Source: Arenicola marina (lineage: Eukaryota; Annelida; Polychaeta; Arenicolidae). Taken from it: a DNA stretch of 64,000 nucleotides. A program made the translations under genes and the position numbers. The stretch lies in contig OZ025257.1 of assembly GCA_964019135.1 (NCBI GenBank), positions 23,854,352-23,918,351 on the forward strand. Reading direction: 5' to 3'. This document shows, piece by piece, positions 1,435 through 64,000 of this stretch. A model generated the notes under the pieces. That model was not told the DNA's origin, did not search any database, and saw nothing but the letters and a program-made list of their open reading frames with translations. Every line of letters starts with the position of its first letter. Positions within the stretch are counted from its first letter, which is position 1.

Positions 1435-1581
1435 CGCCGCCCGCCTGGATGAGATAGGCCTCCATGTTGTCACAGTCCACCTTGGTGCGGCAGAAGATGA
1501 TGGCCTTGTCCATCTTGTGCTCGCGGATGGCTCTCACCGTGTACTCGCCCTTCAGGATCTTAATGGCTTCAGACAGCATTT
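1435..1581 (-). CDS. DDX1: DDX1 exon D (motif IV region)
   Basis: 147-nt exon on the minus strand. The acceptor catttgcag precedes 1581 and the donor GTGAGC starts at 1434. It starts with AA, which completes a GAA (Glu) codon whose G ends exon C, and then encodes 48 residues: [13 protein letters not shown], then [19 protein letters not shown], then [13 protein letters not shown]. The AIIFCRTK core is helicase motif IV at the start of the second RecA-like domain; vertebrate DDX1 has [15 protein letters not shown] here. Phase agreement across a 56.7-kb gap to exon C (TP|E|MLSEA, vertebrate SPEMWSEA) supports a single gene and not two fragments. Confidence 0.96.
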
Positions 1582-16032: not shown

Positions 16033-16280
16033 GGTGTGGGTTGTATATTAAGGACGCTTTAACCACTTTTGGTCATACGGGGAAGGAAGGGAGAGTGGAG
16101 CCATGTCCCCCGGGGTAACCCCCTACTCTTTGCGAAGAAGGGCATGGGATCTTTATCCTGCGACCACACAGACATGACCACAGCGGGACTCGAACTATAG
16201 ATCCACGTGTCATTAGGCTCTCAGGTGGCCAGAGCACTCAAGGCGAGCGCTCTAACCCACTGGCTACCGGGACGGCCCCC
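16033..16280 (-). mobile_element. Full-length tRNA-derived SINE with target duplication
   Basis: Complete copy. On the minus strand it starts with the GGGGGCCGTCCCGGTAGC head and ends at the gttgtatatt tail side. It is flanked by exact 14-bp direct repeats TCGATAGATGATAG (16019-16032 and 16281-16294), the expected mark of retroposition. Confidence 0.9.
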
Positions 16281-16368
16281 TCGATAGATGATAGATCATA
16301 CAGGGTGAATTGGTGACAACTATGATGAATTAATTCAAGGCATCACACAACAACGAGCATGCCAGTGT

Positions 16369-16673: not shown

Positions 16674-16873
16674 NNNNNNNNNNNNNNNNNNNNNNNNNNN
16701 NNNNNNNNNNNNNNNNNNNNNNNNNNNNNNNNNNNNNNNNNNNNNNNNNNNNNNNNNNNNNNNNNNNNNNNNNNNNNNNNNNNNNNNNNNNNNNNNNNNN
16801 NNNNNNNNNNNNNNNNNNNNNNNNNNNNNNNNNNNNNNNNNNNNNNNNNNNNNNNNNNNNNNNNNNNNNNNNN
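16674..16873. other. Assembly gap (200 N)
   Basis: Exactly 200 undetermined bases. ORFs running through it are meaningless. Confidence 1.
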
Positions 16874-20325: not shown

Positions 20326-23300
20326 CTTCCCGGTCAGTCCCTGCCCGCCTTCGGTCCCTGCCCGCCTTCGGTCCCTGCCAGCCTTCGGTCCCTGCCTGCC
20401 TTCAGTCCCTGCCCGCCTTCAGTCCCTGCCCGCCTTCAGTCCCTGCCTGCCTTCAGTCCCTGCCTGCCTTCAGTCCCTGCCTGCCTTCGGTCCCTGCCTG
20501 CCTTCAGTCCCTGCCTGCCTTCAGTCCCTGCCTGCCTTCAGTCCCTGCCTGCCTTCGGTCCCTGCCTGCCTTCAGTCCCTGCCTGCCTTCAGTCCCTGCC
20601 TGCCTTCAGTCCTTGCCTGCCTTCAGTCCCTGCCTGCCTTCGGTCCCTGCCCGCCTTCAGTCCCTGCCTGCCTTCAGTCCCTGCCTGCCTTCAGTCCCTG
20701 CCTGCCTTCGGTCCCTGCCTGCCTTCAGTCCCTGCCTGCCTTCAGTCCCTGCCTGCCTTCAATCCCTGCCTGCCTTCAGTCCCTGCCTGCCTTCAGTCCC
20801 TGCCTGCCTTCAGTCCCTGCCTGCCTTCGGTCCCTGCCTGCCCGCCTTCGGTCCCTGCCTGCCTTCGGTCCCTGCCTGCCTTCAGTCCCTGCCTGCCTTC
20901 AATCCCTGCCTGCCTTCAGTCCCTGCCTGCCTTCAGTCCCTGCCTGCCTTCAATCCCTGCCTGCCTTCAGTCCCTGCCTGCCTTCAGTCCCTGCCTGCCT
21001 TCAGTCCCTGCCTGCCTTCAGTCCCTGCCTGCCTTCGGTCCCTGCCTGCCTTCGGTCCCTGCCTGCCTTCGGTCCCTGCCTGCCTTCAGTCCCTGCCTGC
21101 CTTCAGTCCCTGCCTGCCTTCAGTCCCTGCCTGCCTTCAGTCCCTGCCTGCCTTCAGTCCCTGCCTGCCTTCAGTCCCTGCCTGCCTTCGGTCCCTGCCT
21201 GCCTTCGGTCCCTGCCTGCCTTCAGTCCCTGCCTGCCTGCCTTCAGTCCCTGCCTGCCTTCAGTCCCTGCCTGCCTTCAGTCCCTGCCTGCCTTCAGTCC
21301 CTGCCTGCCTTCGGTCCCTGCCTGCCTTCGGTCCCTGCCTGCCTTCGGTCCCTGCCTGCCTTCGGTCCCTGCCTGCCTTCGGTCCCTGCCTGCCTTCAGT
21401 CCCTGCCTGCCTTCGGTCCCTGCCTGCCTTCAGTCCCTGCCTGCCTTCAGTCCCTGCCTGCCTTCAGTCCCTGCCTGCCTTCGGTCCCTGCCTGCCTTCG
21501 GTCCCTGCCTGCCTTCGGTCCCTGCCTGCCTTCAGTCCCTGCCTGCCTGCCTTCAGTCCCTGCCTGCCTTCGGTCCCTGCCTGCCTTCAGTCCCTGCCTG
21601 CCTTCAGTCCCTGCCTGCCTTCAGTCCCTGCCTGCCTTCAGTCCCTGCCTGCCTTCAGTCCCTGCCTGCCTTCAGTCCCTGCCTGCCTTCAGTCCCTGCC
21701 TGCCTTCAGTCCCTGCCTGCCTTCGGTCCCTGCCTGCCTTCGGTCCCTGCCTGCCTTCGGTCCCTGCCTGCCTTCGGTCCCTGCCTGCCTTCAGTCCCTG
21801 CCTGCCTTCGGTCCCTGCCTGCCTTCAGTCCCTGCCTGCCTTCAGTCCCTGCCTGCCTTCAGTCCCTGCCTGCCTTCAGTCCCTGCCTGCCTTCAGTCCC
21901 TGCCTGCCTTCAGTCCCTGCCTGCCTTCAGTCCCTGCCTGCCTGCCTTCGGTCCCTGCCTGCCTTCGGTCCCTGCCTGCCTTCAGTCCCTGCCTGCCTTC
22001 AGTCCCTGCCTGCCTTCAGTCCCTGCCTGCCTTCAGTCCCTGCCTGCCTTCAGTCCCTGCCTGCCTTCAGTCCCTGCCTGCCTTCAGTCCCTGCCTGCCT
22101 GCCTTCGGTCCCTGCCTGCCTTCGGTCCCTGCCTGCCTTCAGTCCCTGCCTGCCTTCAGTCCCTGCCTGCCTTCAGTCCCTGCCTGCCTTCAGTCCCTGC
22201 CTGCCTTCGGTCCCTGCCTGCCTTCAGTCCCTGCCTGCCTTCGGTCCCTGCCTGCCTTCAGTCCCTGCCTGCCTTCAGTCCCTGCCTGCCTTCAGTCCCT
22301 GCCTGCCTTCGGTCCCTGCCTGCCTTCAGTCCCTGCCTGCCTTCAGTCCCTGCCTGCCTTCGGTCCCTGCCTGCCTTCAGTCCCTGCCTGCCTTCAGTCC
22401 CTGCCTGCCTTCGGTCCCTGCCTGCCTTCGGTCCCTGCCTGCCTTCGGTCCCTGCCTGCCTTCAGTCCCTGCCTGCCTGCCTTCAGTCCCTGCCTGCCTT
22501 CGGTCCCTGCCTGCCTTCAGTCCCTGCCTGCCTTCAGTCCCTGCCCGCCTTCGGTCCCTGCCTGCCTTCAGTCCCTGCCTGCCTTCAGTCCCTGCCTGCC
22601 TTCGGTCCCTGCCTGCCTTCAGTCCCTGCCTGCCTTCGGTCCCTGCCTGCCTTCAGTCCCTGCCTGCCTGCCTTCAGTCCCTGCCTGCCTTCAGTCCCTG
22701 CCTGCCTTCGGTCCCTGCCTGCCTGCCTTCAGTCCCTGCCTGCCTTCAGTCCCTGCCTGCCTTCGGTCCCTGCCTGCCTTCAGTCCCTGCCTGCCTTCAG
22801 TCCCTGCCTGCCTTCAGTCCCTGCCTGCCTTCGGTCCCTGCCTGCCTTCAGTCCCTGCCTGCCTTCAGTCCCTGCCTGCCTTCGGTCCCTGCCTGCCTTC
22901 AGTCCCTGCCTGCCTTCAGTCCCTGCCTGCCTTCGGTCCCTGCCTGCCTTCGGTCCCTGCCTGCCTTCGGTCCCTGCCTGCCTTCAGTCCCTGCCTGCCT
23001 GCCTTCAGTCCCTGCCTGCCTTCGGTCCCTGCCTGCCTTCAGTCCCTGCCTGCCTTCAGTCCCTGCCCGCCTTCGGTCCCTGCCTGCCTTCAGTCCCTGC
23101 CTGCCTTCAGTCCCTGCCTGCCTTCGGTCCCTGCCTGCCTTCAGTCCCTGCCTGCCTTCGGTCCCTGCCTGCCTTCAGTCCCTGCCTGCCTGCCTTCAGT
23201 CCCTGCCTGCCTTCAGTCCCTGCCTGCCTTCGGTCCCTGCCTGCCTGCCTTCAGTCCCTGCCTGCCTTCAGTCCCTGCCTGCCTTCGGTCCCTGCCTGCC

Positions 23301-23555
23301 TTCAGTCCCTGCCTGCCTTCAGTCCCTGCCTGCCTTCGGTCCCTGCCTGCCTTCAGTCCCTGCCTGCCTTCAGTCCCTGCCTGCCTTCAGTCCCTGCCTG
23401 CCTTCAGTCCCTGCCTGCCTTCAGTCCCTGCCTGCCTTCAGTCCCTGCCTGCCTTCAGTCCCTGCCTGCCTTCAGTCCCTGCCTGCCTTCAGTCCCTGCC
23501 TGCCTTCAGTCCCTGCCTGCCTTCAGTCCCTGCCTGCCTTCGGTCCCTGCCTTCC
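20326..23555. repeat. 17-bp minisatellite, about 190 copies (TTCAGTCCCTGCCTGCC)
   Basis: 3.2 kb of one 17-bp unit, differing mainly at a single A/G site (ttcagtc or ttcggtc), with occasional 21-bp units that carry an extra tgcc and rare cccgcc units. All three plus-strand frames stay open for 1153-1165 codons. This is a consequence of a stop-free unit whose period is coprime to 3, not evidence of a protein. A block of about 522 bp is duplicated near the 3' end (see findings). Confidence 0.97.
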
Positions 23556-25080: not shown

Positions 25081-25467
25081 ATGACATTACATTATAGGTG
25101 TGTCGTTTCGCGTCAGAGCAGCGGCATCTTCTACCCCATCAGTACGCGTCGCCGCAACATCTCGACACTAAAATCCAAGCCGGACTCACCTGGCGGATCG
25201 ACAGCCGGCCAACTTGTCTCGGGAGAAGAAGCCTACAACCCCAGGCACGCCGCCACCATGTCGCTATGCAGGAGACGCATCGTGCAATGTAATCCTGCAA
25301 AAAGCATGGCTAGAATATCGCTGTCGGGCCACGCCTTTTACTGGTATGGATGTGCAACCAGCGGCGAGTGCGCTCTATCGGATACAGTATTGTTTTTCGT
25401 GTATTAAGGAGAATATAAACGGGGAATTGGCCATAGCTCTCTACGTTGATGGGATTTAACTCCCGAT
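25081..25467 (+). promoter_or_regulatory. Putative 5' flank/leader of the GPCR gene
   Basis: Less repetitive, higher-GC sequence that starts right after the AT-rich array. A TATA-like ATATAAAC occurs at about 25414-25421, roughly 47 bp before the start codon. A cattatag sequence at 25089-25096 could serve as an acceptor of a 5' untranslated exon. Neither is proven. Small ORFs here are not in frame with the receptor. Confidence 0.4.
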
Positions 25468-26631
25468 ATGAATGAAATATCGGAGTCAAACGGCGACTTC
25501 GCCGCCGAGAACAGCACGATGAATTCCTCGACCACCTACTCCCCAGACCTGCAAACGCCGTTCGCCGGGTACGAGTTCTCGCGAGAGTTGACGGTGGCCC
25601 GCTTGTTGGACACCTACGCGCCTCCGATTCTCATCGTTGTCGGCAGCATCGGAAACGTCTTGGCCGTTTTGGCGCTCACTAGACGGCGCTTCCAGCATAG
25701 TTCCATCTGCGCCTACATGGTGGCGCTGGCGGTGGTTAACACGCTGGCGCTGTACGTGGGCTGCGGCCTGAATTGGATCGCCGTGGTCAGCCGGCGGCCG
25801 CACGTTGCGGTCCTTCAGGATTGGATCTGCAAGATCTGGGACTTCAGCCACAAGCTGTGCGAGTCCACGTCGACGTGGCTACTAGTCGCCATGGCGACTG
25901 ATCGCTTCCTAGTCACGTGGTTGCCCCTGCGGGCCATGACGCTGTGCACGCCGTTCATCGCCAAGTTCGTGAACGCCTTCCTGGTGGTGGGCCTCACGTC
26001 CATCCACATCCACTCCATGTGGACCTACGAGGTGACGGCCTCCAGGGGGCGACACACGTGCTCCCTCAACAACTCCCAGCACGACTTCGAGACGGAGGCC
26101 TGGCCCTACATCGCCGCCACCTTCTCCCACTACCTGCCGCTGCTCATGGTCTTCACCTTCACGTCCCTGGTGGCCAGCGGCTTCTTCTGCCCCTCCAGCC
26201 GGGGCGCCGCGGGGGGCGCTGCGGGCGCCGGGGGCAACCCGCAGGAGCCCAACCAGGAGCGCCTTACCTACGTCACCATGGTGCTGGCCGCCATCTTTCT
26301 GCTCTGGTCGCTGCCCTTCCTCATCCACAACATGCTCCCGTATTTCTTACCGCCGGACTGGTTCCGGCCGCCCCTCCGCTTCGACCGCTATTACCTGGCC
26401 TACACCGTGCTCCAGACAGCCAAGTTCTTCTACTACGCCATCAGCTTTCTCGTCTACTTCGCCCTCCTGCCCTCCTTGCGTGCCGAGCTCCGCGCTGTTC
26501 TCTCACACGCACTCTGCCCCAGTCAGCGGCGCTCCGGCCAGGAATTGTCCGACACTGGCGCCGCCAACGGGCTTCTGCGGAGGGAAAACTCCAGCAAAGT
26601 GGAGGTCACGACAGTGGTTTCCTACGTGTGA
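25468..26631 (+). CDS. Rhodopsin-class GPCR (peptide-receptor-like), intronless
   Basis: 387-residue seven-helix receptor, complete from ATG to TGA in one exon. The N-terminus carries two N-glycosylation sequons (N15-S-T, N19-S-S) and no signal peptide. Helices lie at about 52-74 (with G62-N63), 80-103, 119-147, 163-185, 212-240, 267-290 and 308-333. C121 at the start of helix 3 and C198 in loop 2 can form the canonical disulfide. Helix 3 ends in D145-R146-F147, in place of DRY. Helix 6 has W280-S-L-P283. The usual acidic residue of helix 2 is Asn (N91), and the NPxxY motif of helix 7 is replaced by I325-S-F-L-V-Y330. The third inner loop is short and Gly/Ala-rich, and the tail is about 50 residues. 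The pattern recalls the FMRFamide-receptor/GPR139-like orphan group of invertebrates; the ligand is unknown. The gene lies antisense inside the giant DDX1 intron. Upstream start choice: it is the first ATG of the frame after the leader. Confidence 0.93.
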   Translation: MNEISESNGDFAAENSTMNSSTTYSPDLQTPFAGYEFSRELTVARLLDTYAPPILIVVGSIGNVLAVLALTRRRFQHSSICAYMVALAVVNTLALYVGCGLNWIAVVSRRPHVAVLQDWICKIWDFSHKLCESTSTWLLVAMATDRFLVTWLPLRAMTLCTPFIAKFVNAFLVVGLTSIHIHSMWTYEVTASRGRHTCSLNNSQHDFETEAWPYIAATFSHYLPLLMVFTFTSLVASGFFCPSSRGAAGGAAGAGGNPQEPNQERLTYVTMVLAAIFLLWSLPFLIHNMLPYFLPPDWFRPPLRFDRYYLAYTVLQTAKFFYYAISFLVYFALLPSLRAELRAVLSHALCPSQRRSGQELSDTGAANGLLRRENSSKVEVTTVVSYV

Positions 26632-28971: not shown

Positions 28972-29215
28972 GGGGTTGGCATTCAGGACGCTTTAACACT
29001 CATATCGCGTCAATGGGAGAAGAAGGGGAAGAGCGGAGCCACGTCCCCCGGGGTTAACCCCCTACGCTTTGCGAAGGAGGACATGGGATCTTTATCTTGC
29101 GACCGTTCAGACATGACCACAGCGGAGCCGCCGATCCACGTACCGTTAGGTTTTCAGGTGGCTGGAGCGCTCAATGCGAACGCTCTAGCCCACTGAGCTA
29201 TCGGGGCGGCCCCCG
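28972..29215 (-). mobile_element. tRNA-derived SINE, near full length
   Basis: Complete head (A box side gctcagtgggctagagcg on the minus strand) and body, ending at ggcattcagga. A short deletion has removed the bases between the B box and gccgccgatccacg. Confidence 0.88.
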
Positions 29216-30171: not shown

Positions 30172-31974
30172 TAGATGCATGTGGCATGGGCACAAAGAAG
30201 CTTTCTCAAGCCAAAAAACACCTCGCAAAAACAAAATTTGACCACATGGAGCTCAAGAAAATATCCGATATAATTGGGCATGGATGGATTATTAATGGTT
30301 CCGCGAACAGAGGGTATTACTCGGCGGGAGGGCTTATGGATTTAACAAGGGTATCGTTGCCATTATCAACGTATCAATGCTTCCCAGCTCGTTGTCTTTG
30401 TCATTTTATCCTACTTTGTCTCTTAAGTTGGCGAGGAATTTGCAAGGGAACGCGTAGCTATGACATGGACAGAAAGTCTATTTCAACACATTCTTGAACT
30501 TCTTCTCGCGGATGGTTTTCATACGTCGATGGACATTTATTTGATAACTATCCGATTTCCCTTACAAACTCGTCGCCAAGCCAACCTACCTGATGATTAA
30601 TCAAATGCGAAATACAACAAGCTGGAAACCATCCATAGGTTGTTAACGACGCGCACAGCTTATTGGACGCAACCTCTCTCACAGCCCAGAATTAATCAGC
30701 AACTCGAGGGATGTAGCAATAGACTTGCTACAGGCGCCCCCAATCGCCGCGAATTAGACGAGTGGGTGGCTATGAGCGGATTTCGCGGGTGCGCATATCA
30801 TGTCTGGGCAATCTATTGCACGCTGGGACACCCATGTGATGAGTGTCTTCGCTTCGCGCCCGTGTCTAGTACATACATATAAAATGAAATGTTGGCGATT
30901 TACGAGTCTCTATTAGAGGCTAAACATGATGACTAAACAGGAACCGTTCCCAAAATATACAAGATGGTCCCTTCATCCAAATAAATACTCGGCATCTGTC
31001 TTACGTCTACTTTCTCTAAAAACGTAGTTATAAGACAGGCTGTACAGTCACTACGGGATCTGATCGAGACGCCACGAGACAGGGATAATTATGCTCTATG
31101 TCAATGCCTAGCATCAACGGCCTGTACTTGCTGCCTACCTTCCGGTTGTTTGCCTTCACTCGCATCACACACAACATCGGCTAAAGCTGTCATCAGAATT
31201 ATAACCATCAGAGTAGATTTATGTAATATATGAGCGGTCAAACGGTTGATGAACCAGAATGGGGCTGTTTCATGAGTGACTGTCAGTATCAGACAGACTA
31301 GTGTGCTGCGCGGGATTTTTCATGTCGTGTGACGTAATAATCATTATGACTAGCATGTCTGCGCGCGGTATCTACGTAAAAACGTAAAACGTAAACACGT
31401 TCAGACTGAGCAGGCGAGGACAATCGCTCTCCCTTTGTAAACACCGATGATTGGCCTCAAAATACATCGCTTCCAAAAGTCTCATCAGACGGACCACATG
31501 CATTATGGCGAGATACATATCTTATCTTTAACTATATTATGATTTTATAGTTAGGGATGCCTGGACCAAAGCAAACCAAAAATAATTTCACATTCACTCG
31601 ATTCTTTACGCACAAACCGCGCAGCCAGCCGGTTCCCAACACTCAAACGTTGACTACAATGAGGGCGCGTCGCGCAAGTGCAGCAAGGCACCAGCGTGAT
31701 GCGCATTCGTTCTAAGAGCACGCGCTTTTTTCTTGGTCCCCAAAGAACCGGAAATAGAATCCACGAAAACTGTACAGCCCTATAGAACAAGGATGTAACA
31801 AAAAGAAGGAACATAACAATATAATTCGCCCCCTAACGTTGCTTTCTCATTGCCGGTGTAATGATACCCCCAATCAAACAATTTGATCTACTCGCTTCAT
31901 ATCAGAGTGGCCCGTTCAGGCAGCAATCGAATAAAGGGTTGGGAGAAGGCGCCTTGAAACTACTGCATCGTGAT
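30172..31974. other. No gene seen
   Basis: 1.8 kb of unique-looking intronic sequence; short ORFs (30186-30497, 30640-30882, 31551-31814) lack recognisable domains. Confidence 0.55.
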
Positions 31975-40535: not shown

Positions 40536-43500
40536 TACACTCACCCCTCTCAGACCCCCATCAATACAAGAGGGTGGTGTCACACTCACCCCTCTCAGAT
40601 CACCATCAATACAAGAGGGTGGTGCCACACTCACCCCTCTCAGACCCCCATCAATACAAGAGGGTGGTGCCACACTCACCCCTCTCAGACCACCATCAAT
40701 ACAAGAGGGTGGTGCCACACTCACCCCTCTCAGACCCCCATCAATACAAGAGGGTGGTGTCACACTCACCCCTCTCAGACCCCCATCAATACAAGAGGGT
40801 GGTGTCACACTCATCCCTCTCAGACCCCCATCAATACAAGAGGGTGGTGCCACACTCACCCCTCTCAGACCCCCATCAATACAAGAGGGTGGTGTCACAC
40901 TCACCCCTCTCAGACCCCCATCAATACAAGAGGGTGGTGTCACACTCACCCCTCTCAGACCCCCATCAATACAAGAGGGTGGTGCCACACTCACCCCTCT
41001 CAGACCCCCATCAATACAAGAGGGTGGTGTCACACTCACCCCTCTCAGACCCCCATCAATACAAGAGGGTGGTGCCACACTCACCCCTCTCAGACCCCCA
41101 TCAATACAAGAGGGTGGTGCCACACTCACCCCTCTCAGACCCCCATCAATACAAGAGGGTGGTGCTACACTCACCCCTCTCAGACCCCCATCAATACAAG
41201 AGGGTGGTGCCACACTCACCCCTCTCAGACCCCCATCAATACAAGAGGGTGGTGCCACACTCACCCCTCTCAGACCACCATCAATACAAGAGGGTGGTGC
41301 CACACTCACCCCTCTCAGACCCCCATCAATACAAGAGGGTGGTGTCACACTCACCCCTCTCAGACCCCCATCAATACAAGAGGGTGGTGTCACACTCATC
41401 CCTCTCAGACCCCCATCAATACAAGAGGGTGGTGCCACACTCACCCCTCTCAGACCCCCATCAATACAAGAGGGTGGTGTCACACTCACCCCTCTCAGAC
41501 CCCCATCAATACAAGAGGGTGGTGTCACACTCACCCCTCTCAGACCCCCATCAATACAAGAGGGTGGTGCCACACTCACCCCTCTCAGACCCCCATCAAT
41601 ACAAGAGGGTGGTGTCACACTCACCCCTCTCAGATCACCATCAATACAAGAGGGTGGTGCTACACTCACCCCTCTCAGACCCCCATCAATACAAGAGGGT
41701 GGTGTCACACTCACCCCTCTCAGATCACCATCAATACAAGAGGGTGGTGCCACACTCACCCCTCTCAGACCCCCATCAATACAAGAGGGTGGTGCCACAC
41801 TCACCCCTCTCAGATCACCATCAATACAAGAGGGTGGTGCCACACTCACCCCTCTCAGACCCCCATCAATACAAGAGGGTGGTGCTACACTCACCCCTCT
41901 CAGACCCCCATCAATACAAGAGGGTGGTGCTACACTCACCCCTCTCAGATCACCATCAATACAAGAGGGTGGTGCTACACTCACCCCTCTCAGACCCCCA
42001 TCAATACAAGAGGGTGGTGCCACACTCACCCCTCTCAGACCCCCATCAATACAAGAGGGTGGTGTCACACTCACCCCTCTCAGATCACGATCAATACAAG
42101 AGGGTGGTGTCACACTCACCCCTCTCAGATCACCATCAATACAAGAGGGTGGTGCCACACTCACCCCTCTCAGACCCCCATCAATACAAGAGGGTGGTGC
42201 CACACTCACCCCTCTCAGACCCCCATCAATACAAGAGAGTGGTGTCACACTCACCCCTCTCAGATCACCATCAATACAAGAGGGTGTTGTCACACTCACC
42301 CCTCTCAGATCACCATCAATACAAGAGGGTGGTGCTACACTCACCCCTCTCAGACCCCCATCAATACAAGAGGGTGGTGCCACACTCACCCCTCTCAGAC
42401 CCCCATCAATACAAGAGGGTGGTGTCACACTCACCCCTCTCAGATCACGATCAATACAAGAGGGTGGTGTCACACTCACCCCTCTCAGACCCCCATCAAT
42501 ACAAGAGGGTGGTGCCACACTCACCCCTCTCAGACCCCCATCAATACAAGAGGGTGGTGCCACACTCACCCCTCTCAGACCCCCATCAATACAAGAGGGT
42601 GGTGTCACACTCACCCCTCTCAGATCACGATCAATACAAGAGGGTGGTGCCACACTCACCCCTCTCAGACCCCCATCAATACAAGAGGGTGGTGTCACAC
42701 TCACCCCTCTCAGACCCCCATCAATACAAGAGGGTGGTGTCACACTCACCCCTCTCAGATCACCATCAATACAAAAGGGTGGTGTCACACTCACCCCTCT
42801 CAGACCCCCATCAATACAAGAGGGTGGTGCCACACTCACCCCTCTCAGACCCCCATCAATACAAGAGGGTGGTGCCACACTCACCCCTCTCAGACCCCCA
42901 TCAATACAAGAGGGTGGTGTCACACTCACCCCTCTCAGATCACGATCAATACAAGAGGGTGGTGCCACACTCACCCCTCTCAGACCCCCATCAATACAAG
43001 AGGGTGGTGCCACACTCACCCCTCTCAGACCCCCATCAATACAAGAGGGTGGTGTCACACTCACCCCTCTCAGATCACCATCAATACAAGAGGGTGGTGC
43101 CACACTCACCCCTCTCAGACCCCCATCAATACAAGAGGGTGGTGTCACACTCACCCCTCTCAGACCCCCATCAACACAAGAGGGTGGTGTCACACTCACC
43201 CCTCTCAGATCACCATCAATACAAAAGGGTGGTGTCACACTCACCCCTCTCAGACCCCCATCAATACAAGAGGGTGGTGCCACACTCACCCCTCTCAGAC
43301 CCCCATCAATACAAGAGGGTTGTGTCACACTCATCCCTCTCAGACCACCATCAATACAAGAGGGTGGTGCCACACTCACCCCTCTCACACCCCCATCAAT
43401 ACAAGAGGGTGGTGTCACACTCACCTCTCTCAGACCCCCATCAATACAAGAGGGTGGTGTCACACTTACCCCTCTCAGATCTCCATCAATACAAGAGGGT

Positions 43501-43832
43501 GGGGTCACATTCGCCCCTCTCAGACCACCATCAATACAAGAGGGTGGTGTCACATTCGCCCCTCTCAGACCCCCATCAATACAAGAGGGTGGTGTCACAT
43601 TCGCCCCTCTCAGACCACCATCAATACAAGAGGGTGGTGTCACACTCACCCCTCTCAGACCCCCATCAATACAAGAGGGTAGTGTCACACTCACCCCTCT
43701 CAGACCCCCATCAATACAAGAGGGTGGTGTCACACTCACCCCTCTCAGACCCCCATCAATACAAGAGGGTGGTGTCACACTCACCCCTCTCAGACCCCCA
43801 TCAATACAAGAGGGTTGTGTCACACTCACCAC
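40536..43832. repeat. 45-bp minisatellite, about 73 copies
   Basis: 3.3 kb with a strict 45-bp period: cacactcacccctctcagac, then cccatcaatacaag, then agggtggtgt. Variants are cagaccacca, cagatcacca and cagatcacga, plus gtgtcac, gtgccac and gtgctac. Units near 43490-43620 carry a diverged cacattcgccc. The period is a multiple of 3 and the unit is stop-free in two plus frames and one minus frame, which gives ORFs of 1108-1115 codons on both strands. I regard them as artefacts. Confidence 0.97.
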
Positions 43833-44939: not shown

Positions 44940-45196
44940 TTGGTTGTATCGTCAAGACGGCCTATTAACCACTTTTGGTCATATCGCGTCAATGGGAGAA
45001 GGAAGGGAGAGTGGAGCCATGTCTCCGGGGGTAACCCCCTACTCTTTGCGAAGAAGGACATGGGATCTTTATCCTGCGATCACACAGACATGGCCACAGC
45101 GGGGCTCGAACCATCGACCCACGTGCCGCTAGGCTCTCAGGTGGCCAGAGCAATCAATGTGAGCGCTCTAGCCCACTGAGCTATCGGGACGGCCCT
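44940..45196 (-). mobile_element. Full-length tRNA-derived SINE with target duplication
   Basis: Complete 257-bp copy with A box (agctcagtgggctagagcgc on the minus strand) and B box (ggttcgagccccg). Flanked by 16-bp direct repeats that differ at one base: TGCGGGTTAACTTAGG at 44924-44939 and TGCGGGTTCACTTAGG at 45197-45212. It is the clearest retroposition event of the window. Confidence 0.93.
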
Positions 45197-46477: not shown

Positions 46478-46728
46478 GGTTGGATATTCAGGACGCTTTA
46501 ACCACTTTTGATCATATCATATCATTTAGATCATGGGAGAAGGAAGGGAGACTGGAGCCATGTCCCCGGGGGTAACCCCCTACTCCACAGACATGGGATC
46601 TTTATCCTGCGACCACGCAGACATGGTCACAGCGGGGCTCGAACCACCGATCCACGCGCCGTTAGGCTCTCAGGTGGCCAGAGCGCTCAAGGCTAGCGCT
46701 CTGACCCACTGAGCTACCGGGCGACCCC
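46478..46728 (-). mobile_element. tRNA-derived SINE, near full length
   Basis: Complete body and head, with a small atcat expansion near 46515-46530 and a short deletion after ccctact (no aagaagga). Confidence 0.88.
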
Positions 46729-47775: not shown

Positions 47776-48330
47776 AGAGGTAAGGAGACCCACCCCGGGA
47801 GGTAAGGAGACCCACCCCGGGAGGTAAGGGGACTCACCCCGGGAGGTAAGGAGACTCACCCCGGGAGGTAAGGAGACTCACCCCGGGAGGTAAGGAGACT
47901 CACCCCGGGAGGTAAGGAGACTCACCCCGGGAGGTAAGGAGACTCACCCCGGGAGGTAAGGCGACCCACCCCGGGATGTAAGGAGACTCACCCCGGGAGG
48001 TAAGGAGACTCACCCCGGGAGGTAAGGCGACCCACCCCGGGATGTAAGGAGACTCAGCCCGGGAGGTAAGGAGATTCACCCCGGGAGGTAAGGGGACTCA
48101 CCCAGGGAGGTAAGGAGACCCACCCCGGGAGGTAAGGAGACTCACCCCGGGAGGTAAGGAGACCCACCCCGGGAGGTAAGGAGACTCACCCCGGGAGGTA
48201 AGGAGACCCACCCCGGGAGGTAAGGAGACTCACCCCGGGAGGTAAGGAGACTCACCCCGGGAGGTAAGGCGACCCACCCCGGGAGGTAAGGAGACTCACC
48301 CCGGGAGGTAAGGAGACCCACCCCGGAAAG
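47776..48330. repeat. 23-bp minisatellite (GGGAGGTAAGGAGACTCACC)
   Basis: About 24 copies of a 23-bp unit (the quoted 20 bases plus ccg), with ggcgacccac and gatgtaagg variants. Confidence 0.96.
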
Positions 48331-53091: not shown

Positions 53092-53347
53092 GGCTGGTTG
53101 GTTATTCAGGACGCTTTAACCATTTTTGATTATATCGCGTCAATGGGAGAAGGAAGGGAGAGTGGAGCCATGTCTCCGGGGGTAACCCCCTACTCTTTGC
53201 GAAGAAGGACATGGGATCTTTTACCTGCGACCACACAGACATGGCCACAGCGGGGCTCGAACCACCGATCCACGTGCCGTTAGGCTCTCAGGTGGCCAGA
53301 GCACTCAAGGCGAGCGCTCTAACGCACTGAGCTATGGAGGCGGCCCC
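53092..53347 (-). mobile_element. Full-length tRNA-derived SINE
   Basis: Complete head, B box (ggttcgagccccgctg on the minus strand), body and tail side (ggttggttattcagga). Confidence 0.9.
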
Positions 53348-54289
53348 CGTGGTGGGAAAGAACAGGATGAACAGAACTTTCATTTCAGTGCCAGATTCCG
53401 TTAATACCAAGCGGCGCAGGGAACCTGATGAGGGGATTACAACTACAGAATGCTGCCCATCTGGCAATGAATGACTGAATCGGCCGGGCAGCTGAGGGCA
53501 ATATTATACGGAATTTGGCAAGCAAATGAAAAAAAACGAAAATGGTTCACATACGTGATGTACGACAGCGAATAGGTTTCGTTATATCTACATAATAATT
53601 ATAATGAACGACGCAATAGAACTGCCGAAAAGAAGAAATTCGCGTTTGTCGAAAATGAGCACAAATTCCAACATATTTCTCTAATGTAACCAGCATAAGT
53701 TTCAAAACTACTTTTTTTCTCAATAACTGAAACCCCCAAGGCTAAAGCATCTTTCGCCCTTCAAATACATATATCTCAATATGCCTCACCATACGTTGAC
53801 AACGTATGTATATTTATACAATGTACTTAACAGCAAATCATATATTTACTAATATATATATGAAGTACTACATATATTAAATATTATATATATTAACTAC
53901 TACATATATTAGATACAATATATATTAACTACTACATATATTAGATACTATATATATTACATATTATATATATTAAATAATATATATATTACATACAATA
54001 TATTTTACATAGCATATACTATAAATATCCCTATATATTAAATACACTTTAAAAACATAAATCTTAGGCATCCTGAGTTTCCAATGGGTGGGTCGTTCAA
54101 AGTATGACAGTGTTGTTTGTTGCTCAGTACCTGAAGCCGCCATGGCTGCAGCATCGTCCGGTGATCAAATGCTTCCTTCGTGGTAATGGCCACGCTCAGA
54201 TGTCGCACAACGTCCGGCAGCCAGACGCCAAAAGCCACTAACGAGAACGCTAAGCGTGACCGGCAGGTCGTGTGTCAAGGTCACGACGC
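53348..54289. other. No gene seen; ATATATTA-rich region
   Basis: 53820-54035 consists of irregular tatatattaa and ctacatatatta units. The rest is unique-looking. Confidence 0.55.
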
Positions 54290-57404: not shown

Positions 57405-58291
57405 AGGGCGGCTCCCAGGCCACTGATGGGCCGCCCTGTACATTGGGTAATGAGAGGCCGCCTACCTGGGGTCTCAGGTCACTGATGGGCCGCCCTGTAC
57501 ATTGGGTAATGAGAGGCCACCTACCTGGGGTCTCAGGTCACTGATGGGCCGCCCTGTACATAGGGTAATGAGAGGCCACCTACCTGGGGTCTCAGGTCAA
57601 TGATGGGCCGCCCTGTACATAGAGTAATGAGAGGCCACCTACCTGGGGTCTCAGGTCACTGATGGGCCGCCCTGTACATTGGGTAATGAGAGGCCGCCTA
57701 CCTGGGGTCTCAGGTCACTGATGGGCCGCCCTGTACATTGGGTAATGAGAGGCCACCTACCTGGGGGCTCAGGTCACTGATGGGCCGCCCTGTACATTGG
57801 GTAATGAGAGGCCACCTACCTGGGGTCTCAGGTCACTGATGGGCCGCCCTGTACATTGGGTAATGAGAGGCCACCTACCTGGGGTCTCAGGTCACTGATG
57901 GGCCGCCCTGTACATTGGGTAATGAGAGGCCACCTACCTGGGGTCTCAGGTCACTGATGGGCCGCCCTGTACATTGGGTAATGAGAGGCCACCTACCTGG
58001 GGTCTCAGGTCACTGATGGGCCGCCCTGTACATAGAGTAATGAGAGGCCACCTACCTGGGGGCTCAGGTCAATGATGGGCCGCCCTGTACATTGGGTAAT
58101 GAGAGGCCACCTACCTGGGGTCTCAGGTCACTGATGGGCCGCCCTGTACATTGGGTAATGAGAGGCCACCTACCTGGGGTCTCAGGTCACTAATGGGCCG
58201 CCCTGTACATTGGGTAATGAGAGGCCACCTACCTGGGGTCTCAGGTCACTGATGGGCCGCCCTGTACATGAGTGGTAATGAGAGGCCACCT
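57405..58291 (-). repeat. 59-bp minisatellite containing the DDX1 5' splice site
   Basis: Fourteen 59-bp copies plus a partial one, ending at the DDX1 exon C donor. On the minus strand each unit reads GAGACCCCAG, then GTAGGTGGCCTCTCATTACC, then a spacer with tgtacagggcggcccatca. The first 10 bases are the last 10 bases of exon C and the next six are its donor. The copy next to the exon has two extra bases, so the step there is 61 bp. GTAGGT is intact in all 14 copies. In two copies (about 57765 and 58060) the C run in front reads gagcccccag. Confidence 0.97.
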
Positions 58292-58293
58292 AC

Positions 58294-58405
58294 CTGGGGT
58301 CTCTATACCGGGGTTGAGGCGGTCCTTGGCGTGGACCCCGTCAGTGGCCACGTGGTTCTTCAGTTCCTTCCACAGCTGTTGCTCCCGCGGATCCACCTTC
58401 AACAC
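58294..58405 (-). CDS. DDX1: DDX1 exon C (inter-RecA linker)
   Basis: 112-nt exon, acceptor cgctgcag before 58405, donor GTAGGT at 58293. It encodes 37 residues, VLKVDPREQQLWKELKNHVA, then TDGVHAKDRLNPGIETP, and ends with the first base of a Glu codon completed in exon D. Vertebrate DDX1 reads NPKTDRLWERL and RTDDVHAKDNTRPG here, so position, spacing and the VHAKD block agree. The linker lies between the two RecA-like domains. Its last ten bases are copied in the adjoining 59-bp minisatellite. Confidence 0.95.
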
Positions 58406-58835: not shown

Positions 58836-58910
58836 CACGTGATGCACCGTTTCCGGGACGCTGTCCTGTCCCTTCAGATCAATCCAGATTGGAAAATGCA
58901 TGAGCTTCTC
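58836..58910 (-). CDS. DDX1: DDX1 exon B
   Basis: 75-nt exon, acceptor tctgtttcag before 58910, donor GTACGT at 58835. It reads exactly 25 codons: [20 protein letters not shown] then TVHHV. Vertebrate DDX1 has [20 protein letters not shown] then TVHHVV, so nearly every residue is conserved or similar. It belongs to the end of the first RecA-like domain after motif III. Frame and phase match exon A (KKMA) and exon C (VLKVDP). Confidence 0.97.
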
Positions 58911-62243: not shown

Positions 62244-62495
62244 GGGTTGGTTGTATATTCAGAACGCTTTAATCAATTCTGCACATCTCGCGTCAATGGG
62301 AGAAGGAAAGGAAGAGCGGAGCCATGTCCCCGGGGTTATCCCCTACTCTTTGCGAAGAAGGACGTGGAATCTTTATCCTGCGACCACACAGACATGGCCA
62401 CAGCAGGGCTCGAACCACCGATGACGTTAGGCTCTCAGGTGGCCAGAACACTCAATGCGAGTGCCCTAACCCACTGAGCTATCGAGGCGGCCCCC
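62244..62495 (-). mobile_element. tRNA-derived SINE inside DDX1 intron
   Basis: Near full length, same strand as DDX1. Its head lies only about 38 bp downstream of the exon A donor. A 9-bp deletion occurs next to the B box (accgatgacgttagg). Confidence 0.88.
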
Positions 62496-62533
62496 GCGCC
62501 GCCAGGGAATGTCTGGCCAATGCTACCACTTAC

Positions 62534-62674
62534 CGCCATCTTTTTGACGTCGAAGGAGTGCAGCGTGGCGGAGCACACGACCATCTGGAGCCGCTTGCCG
62601 TCCGGAGTGACGTTCGGGATCTGGCGGTGGATCCGGCTGATGAGGTCTCCGTACCCCGCAGACAACAGGCCGTC
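62534..62674 (-). CDS. DDX1: DDX1 exon A (motif III, SAT)
   Basis: 141-nt exon, 47 codons. Acceptor ctcgccttcag before 62674 and donor GTAAGT at 62533, phase 0 on both sides. It encodes [20 protein letters not shown], then [20 protein letters not shown], then FDVKKMA. Vertebrate DDX1 has [20 protein letters not shown] and [23 protein letters not shown], so the identity is unmistakable. The first Asp is the last residue of the DEAD box (motif II), whose first three residues are on the preceding exon; SAT is motif III, which couples ATP hydrolysis to unwinding. DDX1 acts in RNA processing, including the tRNA ligase complex, as known from vertebrates. Confidence 0.97.
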
Positions 62675-64000
62675 CTGAAGGAAGGCGAGCAGGACCCCGT
62701 CATTACCTAGCGCAGGACGCCATGCCCCCCCCCCCCCCTCTCCGGTCAGAGCAGACCCGCGTCCTAGTATTAAACTCTGGACAGCGATTTTTCTGAAGTA
62801 TGCAATATTTTACATATGCCCGCAAGAACTGTCCTGCTGCATTGTGGGAAGAAAACTAGTTCCTTGTGACCCATGACGTTGGATAGCGCACTCCGTGTGA
62901 CAGAAATTGTGCGCGGCGGTCGACCGCGATGCGGCCCGGGATGTTGAGAGATATTGTACTTACGCACTGAGCCAGGATGTTTGGAGACCTTGTACTGACG
63001 CACTGAGCCTGGATGTTTGGAGACATTGTACTTACGCACTGAGCCAGGATGTTTGGAGACATTGTACTTACGCACTGAGCCAGGATGTTTGGAGACCTTG
63101 TACTGACGCACTGAGCCAGTATGTTTGGAGACATTGTACTTACGCACTGAGCCAGGATGTTTGGAGACATTGTACTTACGCACTGAGCCAGGATGTTTGG
63201 AGACATTATACTTACGCACTGAGCCAGGATGTTTGGAGACATTGTACTTACGCACTGAGCCAGGATGTTTGGAGATATTGTACTTACGCACTGAGCCAGG
63301 ATGTTTGGAGACATTATACTTACGCACTCAGCCAGGATGTTTGGAGACATTGTACTTACGCACTGAGCCAGGATGTTTGGAGACATTATTCTTACGCACT
63401 GAGCCAGGATGTTTGGAGACATTGTACTTACGCACTGAGCCAGGATGTTTGGAGACATTAGACTTACGCACTCAGCCAGGATGTTTGGAGATATTGTACT
63501 TACGCACTGAGCCAGGATGTTTGGATACATTATACTTACACACTGAGCCAGGATGTTTGGAGACATTGTACTTACGCACTGAGCCAGGATGTTTGGAGAC
63601 ATTGTACTTACGCACTGAGCCAGGATGTTTGGAGACATTGTACTTACGCACTGAGCCAGGATGTTTGGAGACATTATACTTACGCACTCAGCCAGGATGT
63701 TTGGAGATATTGTACTTACACACTGAGCCAGGATGTTTGGATACATTATACTTACACACTGAGCCAGGATGTTTGGAGACATTGTACTTACGCACTGAGC
63801 CAGGATGTTTGGAGAGATTGTACTTACGCACTGAGCCAGGATGTTTGGATACATTATACTTACACACTGAGCCAGGATGTTTGGAGACATTATACTTACG
63901 CACTGAGCCAGGATGTTTGGAGATATTGTACTTACGCACTGAGCCAGGATGTTTGGATACATTGTACTTACGCACTGAGCCAGGATGTTTGGAGACATTG
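62675..64000 (-). other. Upstream DDX1 intron, incomplete
   Basis: Begins at the exon A acceptor and continues beyond the window. It contains a C run at 62727-62739, about 180 bp of unique sequence and then the 36-bp array. Confidence 0.8.
62940..64000 (-). repeat. 36-bp minisatellite carrying GTAAGT
   Basis: At least 29 copies, running off the window. On the minus strand the unit is cagtgcGTAAGTacaatgtc, then tccaaacatcctggct. Variants are ggatacat, ggagatat, cttacac and ctcagcc. The 36-bp period keeps several frames open (RKYNVSKHPGSV repeats); not a protein. Confidence 0.97.

Follow-up and report, generated by a model that had tools for sequence, protein, structure and literature searches.

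A minisatellite spanning a DDX1 exon-intron junction sets fourteen copies of the 5' splice site behind the authentic one

Tandem repeats that copy an exon-intron boundary have been described in amphioxus, where the Adh3 and globin "mirages", a name that PMC3087553 credits to a 2002 Adh paper, are reported to carry AG/GT signals in many, though not all, of their units. These repeats are described as unstable in length, RT-PCR suggests that the genes bearing them are spliced regularly, and intron gain from such repeats has been proposed (PMC3087553). TnC has been added to the series, with data that again suggest regular splicing, and a PGBD5 mirage composed of imperfect duplications is likewise suggested to be spliced regularly (PMC3902484). 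The unit lengths given are 10-72 bp for Adh3, 60 and 108 bp for PGBD5, and 150-160 bp for the globins (PMC3087553, PMC3902484), and in the BflGb6 mirage the units at the cluster boundary are described as exempt from homogenisation (PMC3087553). In humans, the CBS gene contains a 31-bp VNTR, c.1444_1467+7(16_21), repeated 16-21 times (PMC2630376), and a review reports lower CBS activity at higher repeat numbers (PMC5188458). A further human minisatellite, the 38-bp VNTR of TERT intron 6, reportedly influences splicing by RNA pairing and shows a copy-number threshold for this effect (PMC3948165).

The DNA considered here, a window of 64,000 nucleotides from Arenicola marina, contains part of a DDX1 gene on the minus strand, and the array at the end of one of its exons is real and striking, yet of a kind known already from lancelets and from one human gene. 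Exon A (62534..62674), with a translation ending in ...DVKKMA and the donor GCG/GTAAGT, matches residues 167-216 of human DDX1 (8tbx) at E=3.6e-18. Exon D (1435..1581; acceptor TTTGCAG/AAATG, donor GCG/GTGAGC) matches residues 278-329 at E=7e-22, and exon C (58294..58405, 112 nt, preceded by the acceptor CTGCAG) matches residues 241-278 at E=1.5e-05, in a search in which three engineered repeat proteins rank higher, none of them with a single stretch that passes threshold. The DDX1 identity proposed in the initial annotation is borne out by these three alignments. Exon B (58836..58910) was placed by its translation and splice signals, and probably resembles human DDX1. No DDX1 exon preceding exon A turned up in the 64-kb window; it may lie past the window's end.

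The last complete codon of exon C aligns to Pro278 and is followed by one further base, and the first two bases of exon D complete the Glu aligned to residue 279, with no residue missing or extra at the junction. Because the two alignments to human DDX1 are contiguous, the authentic donor can be placed without RNA, and the exon end that had been proposed for exon C gains independent confirmation. The same protein argument suggests that the mRNA is made from this exon-proximal donor. The intron running from exon C to exon D, its downstream partner, spans 56,712 bp as assembled, with one 200-N scaffold gap inside it at 16674-16873, in agreement with the 56.7 kb that had been claimed. This intron also holds, on the plus strand, an uninterrupted open reading frame of 393 aa (25450-26631) that resembles a rhodopsin-type receptor; its top match, P0001, carries PF00001 and is 51% identical across 82% of the query.

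Read on the minus strand, exon C terminates in ...GGTATAGAGACCCCAG and the intron opens with GTAGGTGGCC. The junction, GAGACCCCAG/GTAGGT, has the authentic 5' splice site CAG/GTAGGT at 58288..58296 (first intron base 58293) and recurs 14 times behind it, the exon sequence running uninterrupted into the array. Tandem Repeats Finder reports the array at 57416-58303 with a period of 59, 15.0 copies, 96% matches and a score of 1660. Its unit spans the boundary, beginning with the final 10 exonic bases and continuing with 49 intronic ones, and the 15 copies include the authentic junction. The decoy donors (57460..58235) have their first intron bases at 58232, 58173, 58114, 58055, 57996, 57937, 57878, 57819, 57760, 57701, 57642, 57583, 57524 and 57465. 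Junctions are spaced by 59 bp in 13 of 14 steps and by 61 bp in the first, the unit next to the exon being the sole length variant; motif positions and Tandem Repeats Finder together confirm the fourteenfold repetition and the spacing as initially noted. The minus strand of the window has 16 occurrences of CAGGTAGG, of which 15 fall at the array (the real site and its 14 copies) and one, unrelated to the array, lies at 30592, and no exact 13-mers of the consensus unit were found elsewhere in the 64-kb window.

The claim that every decoy shares the donor context of the real site stands in large part. CAG/GTAGG is kept in all 14 decoys and the full 9-mer CAG/GTAGGT in 12, but two have C at +6, and identity over the 16 bases GAGACCCCAGGTAGGT extends to only 10 of the 14, two decoys distinct from the +6 C pair having an A>C change inside the exon-derived bases. 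Mean pairwise identity among the 14 decoy units is 97.1%, and the lowest is 91.5%. With 5' splice sites scored in bits by a donor matrix, the real donor and its 12 identical decoys score 6.06 and the two +6 C decoys 4.79, against 5.38, 3.99 and 2.25 for the donors of exons A, D and B; among the window's 4010 GT sites on the minus strand, about 0.6% score at least 6.06. On the same matrix, 25 intron sites score at least 6.0 bits: 13 belong to the exon C array, one belongs to a different array and the other 11 to none.

The resemblance to amphioxus mirages, pointed out initially, is substantiated by the published tandem junction repeats (PMC3087553, PMC3902484). As in Adh3, BflGb6, BflGb9, PGBD5 and TnC, the DDX1 unit spans a boundary and carries a splice signal, and the deviant 61-bp unit that adjoins the exon recalls the boundary units of BflGb6. 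Unlike the amphioxus examples, the array lies in DDX1, has 14 extra copies where the two BflGb6 haplotypes have 6 and 3 units, stands at the head of a 56.7-kb intron and is known here from the sequence of one assembly. The CBS VNTR is alike in layout, with 24 exonic and 7 intronic bases across the donor by its coordinates; it differs in its mostly exonic unit, its vertebrate gene, the reported effect on activity and the review's description of the sequence as non-coding (PMC5188458). This comparison concerns layout alone and claims no sequence relation. The TERT VNTR shares with the DDX1 array the nature of an intronic minisatellite, but it lies over 1 kb away from the nearest junction and promotes exon skipping, and its abstract mentions no donor copies (PMC3948165). 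DDX1 thereby joins a short list of junction-spanning minisatellites in the literature compared, and sequence plus a homologous protein is enough to recognise such loci.

We favour, with a probability of roughly 0.72, the reading that the array is a neutral mirage minisatellite whose exon-proximal donor is the one in use; the array is most likely harmless. A tandem duplication would have happened to span the 3' end of exon C and 49 bp of intron, seeding an array that unequal exchange or slippage may then have amplified and homogenised, in a region with about 30% of its bases in tandem arrays. The decoys would be mostly silent, or their products destroyed. Consistent with this reading are the junction set by homology, the 97.1% likeness of the units, the position of the sole length variant beside the exon and the in-frame stop that precedes all 14 decoys, together with the regular splicing reported or suggested for amphioxus mirages (PMC3087553, PMC3902484). 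Against it stands the human CBS VNTR, whose reported loss of activity with rising repeat number means that neutrality is not to be assumed (PMC5188458).

The placement of an array at a junction can be weighed against the repeat content of the window. After filtering, 23 arrays cover 19,398 of the 64,000 bases, about 30% of the window, and a second set, merged by hand from the Tandem Repeats Finder list, has 26 arrays covering 20,743 bases. When 26 seed units are placed at random, 5.0% of trials cover one or more of the four donors and 11.1% cover a donor or an acceptor, with acceptor positions within 2 nt of those reported. An array falls on a junction by chance in about one of ten or twenty comparable windows, and an occasional match therefore needs no special cause. 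Chance fares less well in a post hoc test, devised after the data had been viewed, in which an array edge lies at -10 to 30 nt from two of the four donors (C and D), a result that random placement gives in 0.15% of cases.

The best of the competing explanations, although still unlikely, is that the decoys act as length-tunable poison donors: part of the transcripts would be spliced from decoys, acquire a premature stop and decay, and repeat number would set DDX1 output. Translation past the real donor meets an in-frame TGA after ...IETPGRWPLITTHVQGGPSVT, ahead of 14 of 14 decoys, as the initial annotation had claimed for decoy use, and splicing from a decoy is predicted to lengthen exon C from 112 nt to between 173 (first decoy) and 940 nt (last). 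To these stops and the 12 decoys that share the real 9-base donor can be added the CBS VNTR, a like layout with activity reported to fall with copy number (PMC5188458). In many human genes, intron-distal sites with SRSF1 attached immediately upstream are reported to be suppressed, to the benefit of intron-proximal ones (PMC5585400), and because the authentic DDX1 donor is the intron-distal member of its series, this rule could favour a decoy over the real donor. A 68-bp insertion in human CBS that duplicates the intron 7/exon 8 junction, with the more distal copy reported as strongly preferred (PMC2630376), similarly speaks against the exon-proximal reading here. Nevertheless, splicing is reported to be undisturbed by the mirages of Adh3, the globins and TnC (PMC3087553, PMC3902484), and the suggestion that decay tunes DDX1 through the decoys found no supporting evidence, although the CBS VNTR is reported to lower activity.

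If the array is neutral and the exon-proximal donor in use, exon definition, by which the shortest exon would be chosen, is the simplest account of donor choice, and it would probably operate together with first-come U1 pairing; a local hairpin formed at the decoys only would perhaps assist. A stronger version, which we consider improbable, is that each decoy is silenced by its own unit, its donor being paired in a predicted hairpin ACCUG-AGACCC-CAGGU. The intron end of the preceding unit supplies the 5' arm of this hairpin, which is why the arm is missing at the authentic junction. The decoy hairpin is predicted at -6.4 kcal/mol with CAGGU paired, and the real counterpart folds differently, at -1.8 kcal/mol. 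Predicted accessibility ranks the authentic donor first among the 15 in seven of ten settings and second in another; in a comparable run with a longer flank, it takes first or second place in all eight settings. In the remaining two of the ten settings (span 30), however, it comes 14th of 15. Moreover, shuffled units reach an equal or larger accessibility gap in 9-61% of trials over six settings, and 293 of 3000 shuffled units form a comparable hairpin. Since shuffled units perform likewise, in both the accessibility gap and the hairpin, the hairpin was dropped as a proven discriminator and is kept as a testable lead, its performance not being beyond chance. A combination of the two preceding ideas, a splice-site ladder in which length-variable, near-identical poison donors set the loss of DDX1 pre-mRNA and a hairpin from the tandem layout partly masks the decoys, appears slightly less probable again. 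Whatever the mechanism, 15 near-identical donors, one behind an exon and 14 without, constitute a natural test of 5' splice site choice that could separate exon definition, first-come pairing and downstream-site preference.

That the array was falsely expanded, or its junction misassembled, is very improbable: scaffolding was needed within the same intron, as the 200-N gap attests, but this gap is some 40 kb distant from the array, point changes distinguish the units, the first spacing differs from the others and exon C passes unbroken into the repeats. U1 snRNP protects long introns from premature cleavage and polyadenylation, a function known as telescripting. The least probable proposal, a very improbable one, is that this and other donor-bearing arrays of the intron form a platform loading U1 snRNP against such cleavage: the intron has 121 DDX1-sense sites of at least 3.99 bits on the donor matrix (97, including the real donor, fall within three arrays and 24 lie elsewhere) and 36 sense-strand A(A/T)TAAA motifs, but sense donors occur in 3 of 23 arrays against a shuffled mean of 1.39, which is not significant, and one donor-rich array has more antisense than sense donors (23 vs 14).

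The other arrays of the window were compared with shuffled units for donor motifs in general. The sense-strand count is reached by 13% of shuffles and the antisense-strand count is 1 of 23 against a shuffled mean of 0.59, and the idea that arrays of the window are generally enriched in donor motifs was accordingly rejected, neither strand lying significantly above shuffled units. Individual arrays have features of their own. A 22-bp unit at 47777-48326 carries the donor-like GAG/GTAAGG on the plus strand and GGG/GTGAGT on the minus strand, each found in fewer than 1% of shuffled units. The 45-bp unit at 40537-43830, in 73 copies, has 68 donor-like sites on the DDX1-sense strand, and this array also carries open reading frames of more than 1,100 codons; in a 17-bp array of 187 copies at 20334-23552, all three plus-strand frames are open for more than 1,100 codons. 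Two of the four DDX1 donors in the window, those of exons C and D, adjoin an array, the one at exon D being a 16-bp repeat of 34.8 copies (889-1414); its start lies 20 nt downstream of that donor, whose first intron base is 1434. A 36-bp array at 62939-64000 has GTAAGT on the DDX1-sense strand and reaches the window end toward the preceding DDX1 exon; it could be a second junction array, and its donor, with C at -1, has a low score of 0.34 bits on the donor matrix. ARAGORN identified no tRNA genes in the window, including within an interspersed repeat of about 220 bp, and an Rfam scan gave no matches. This repeat, present at 62280-62500 and elsewhere, has a start that appears tRNA-like and is perhaps a SINE; near full-length copies, 80-88% alike, lie at 53132-53349, 44980-45195, 16079-16283, 29001-29215 and 46533-46728, and shorter pieces are also present.
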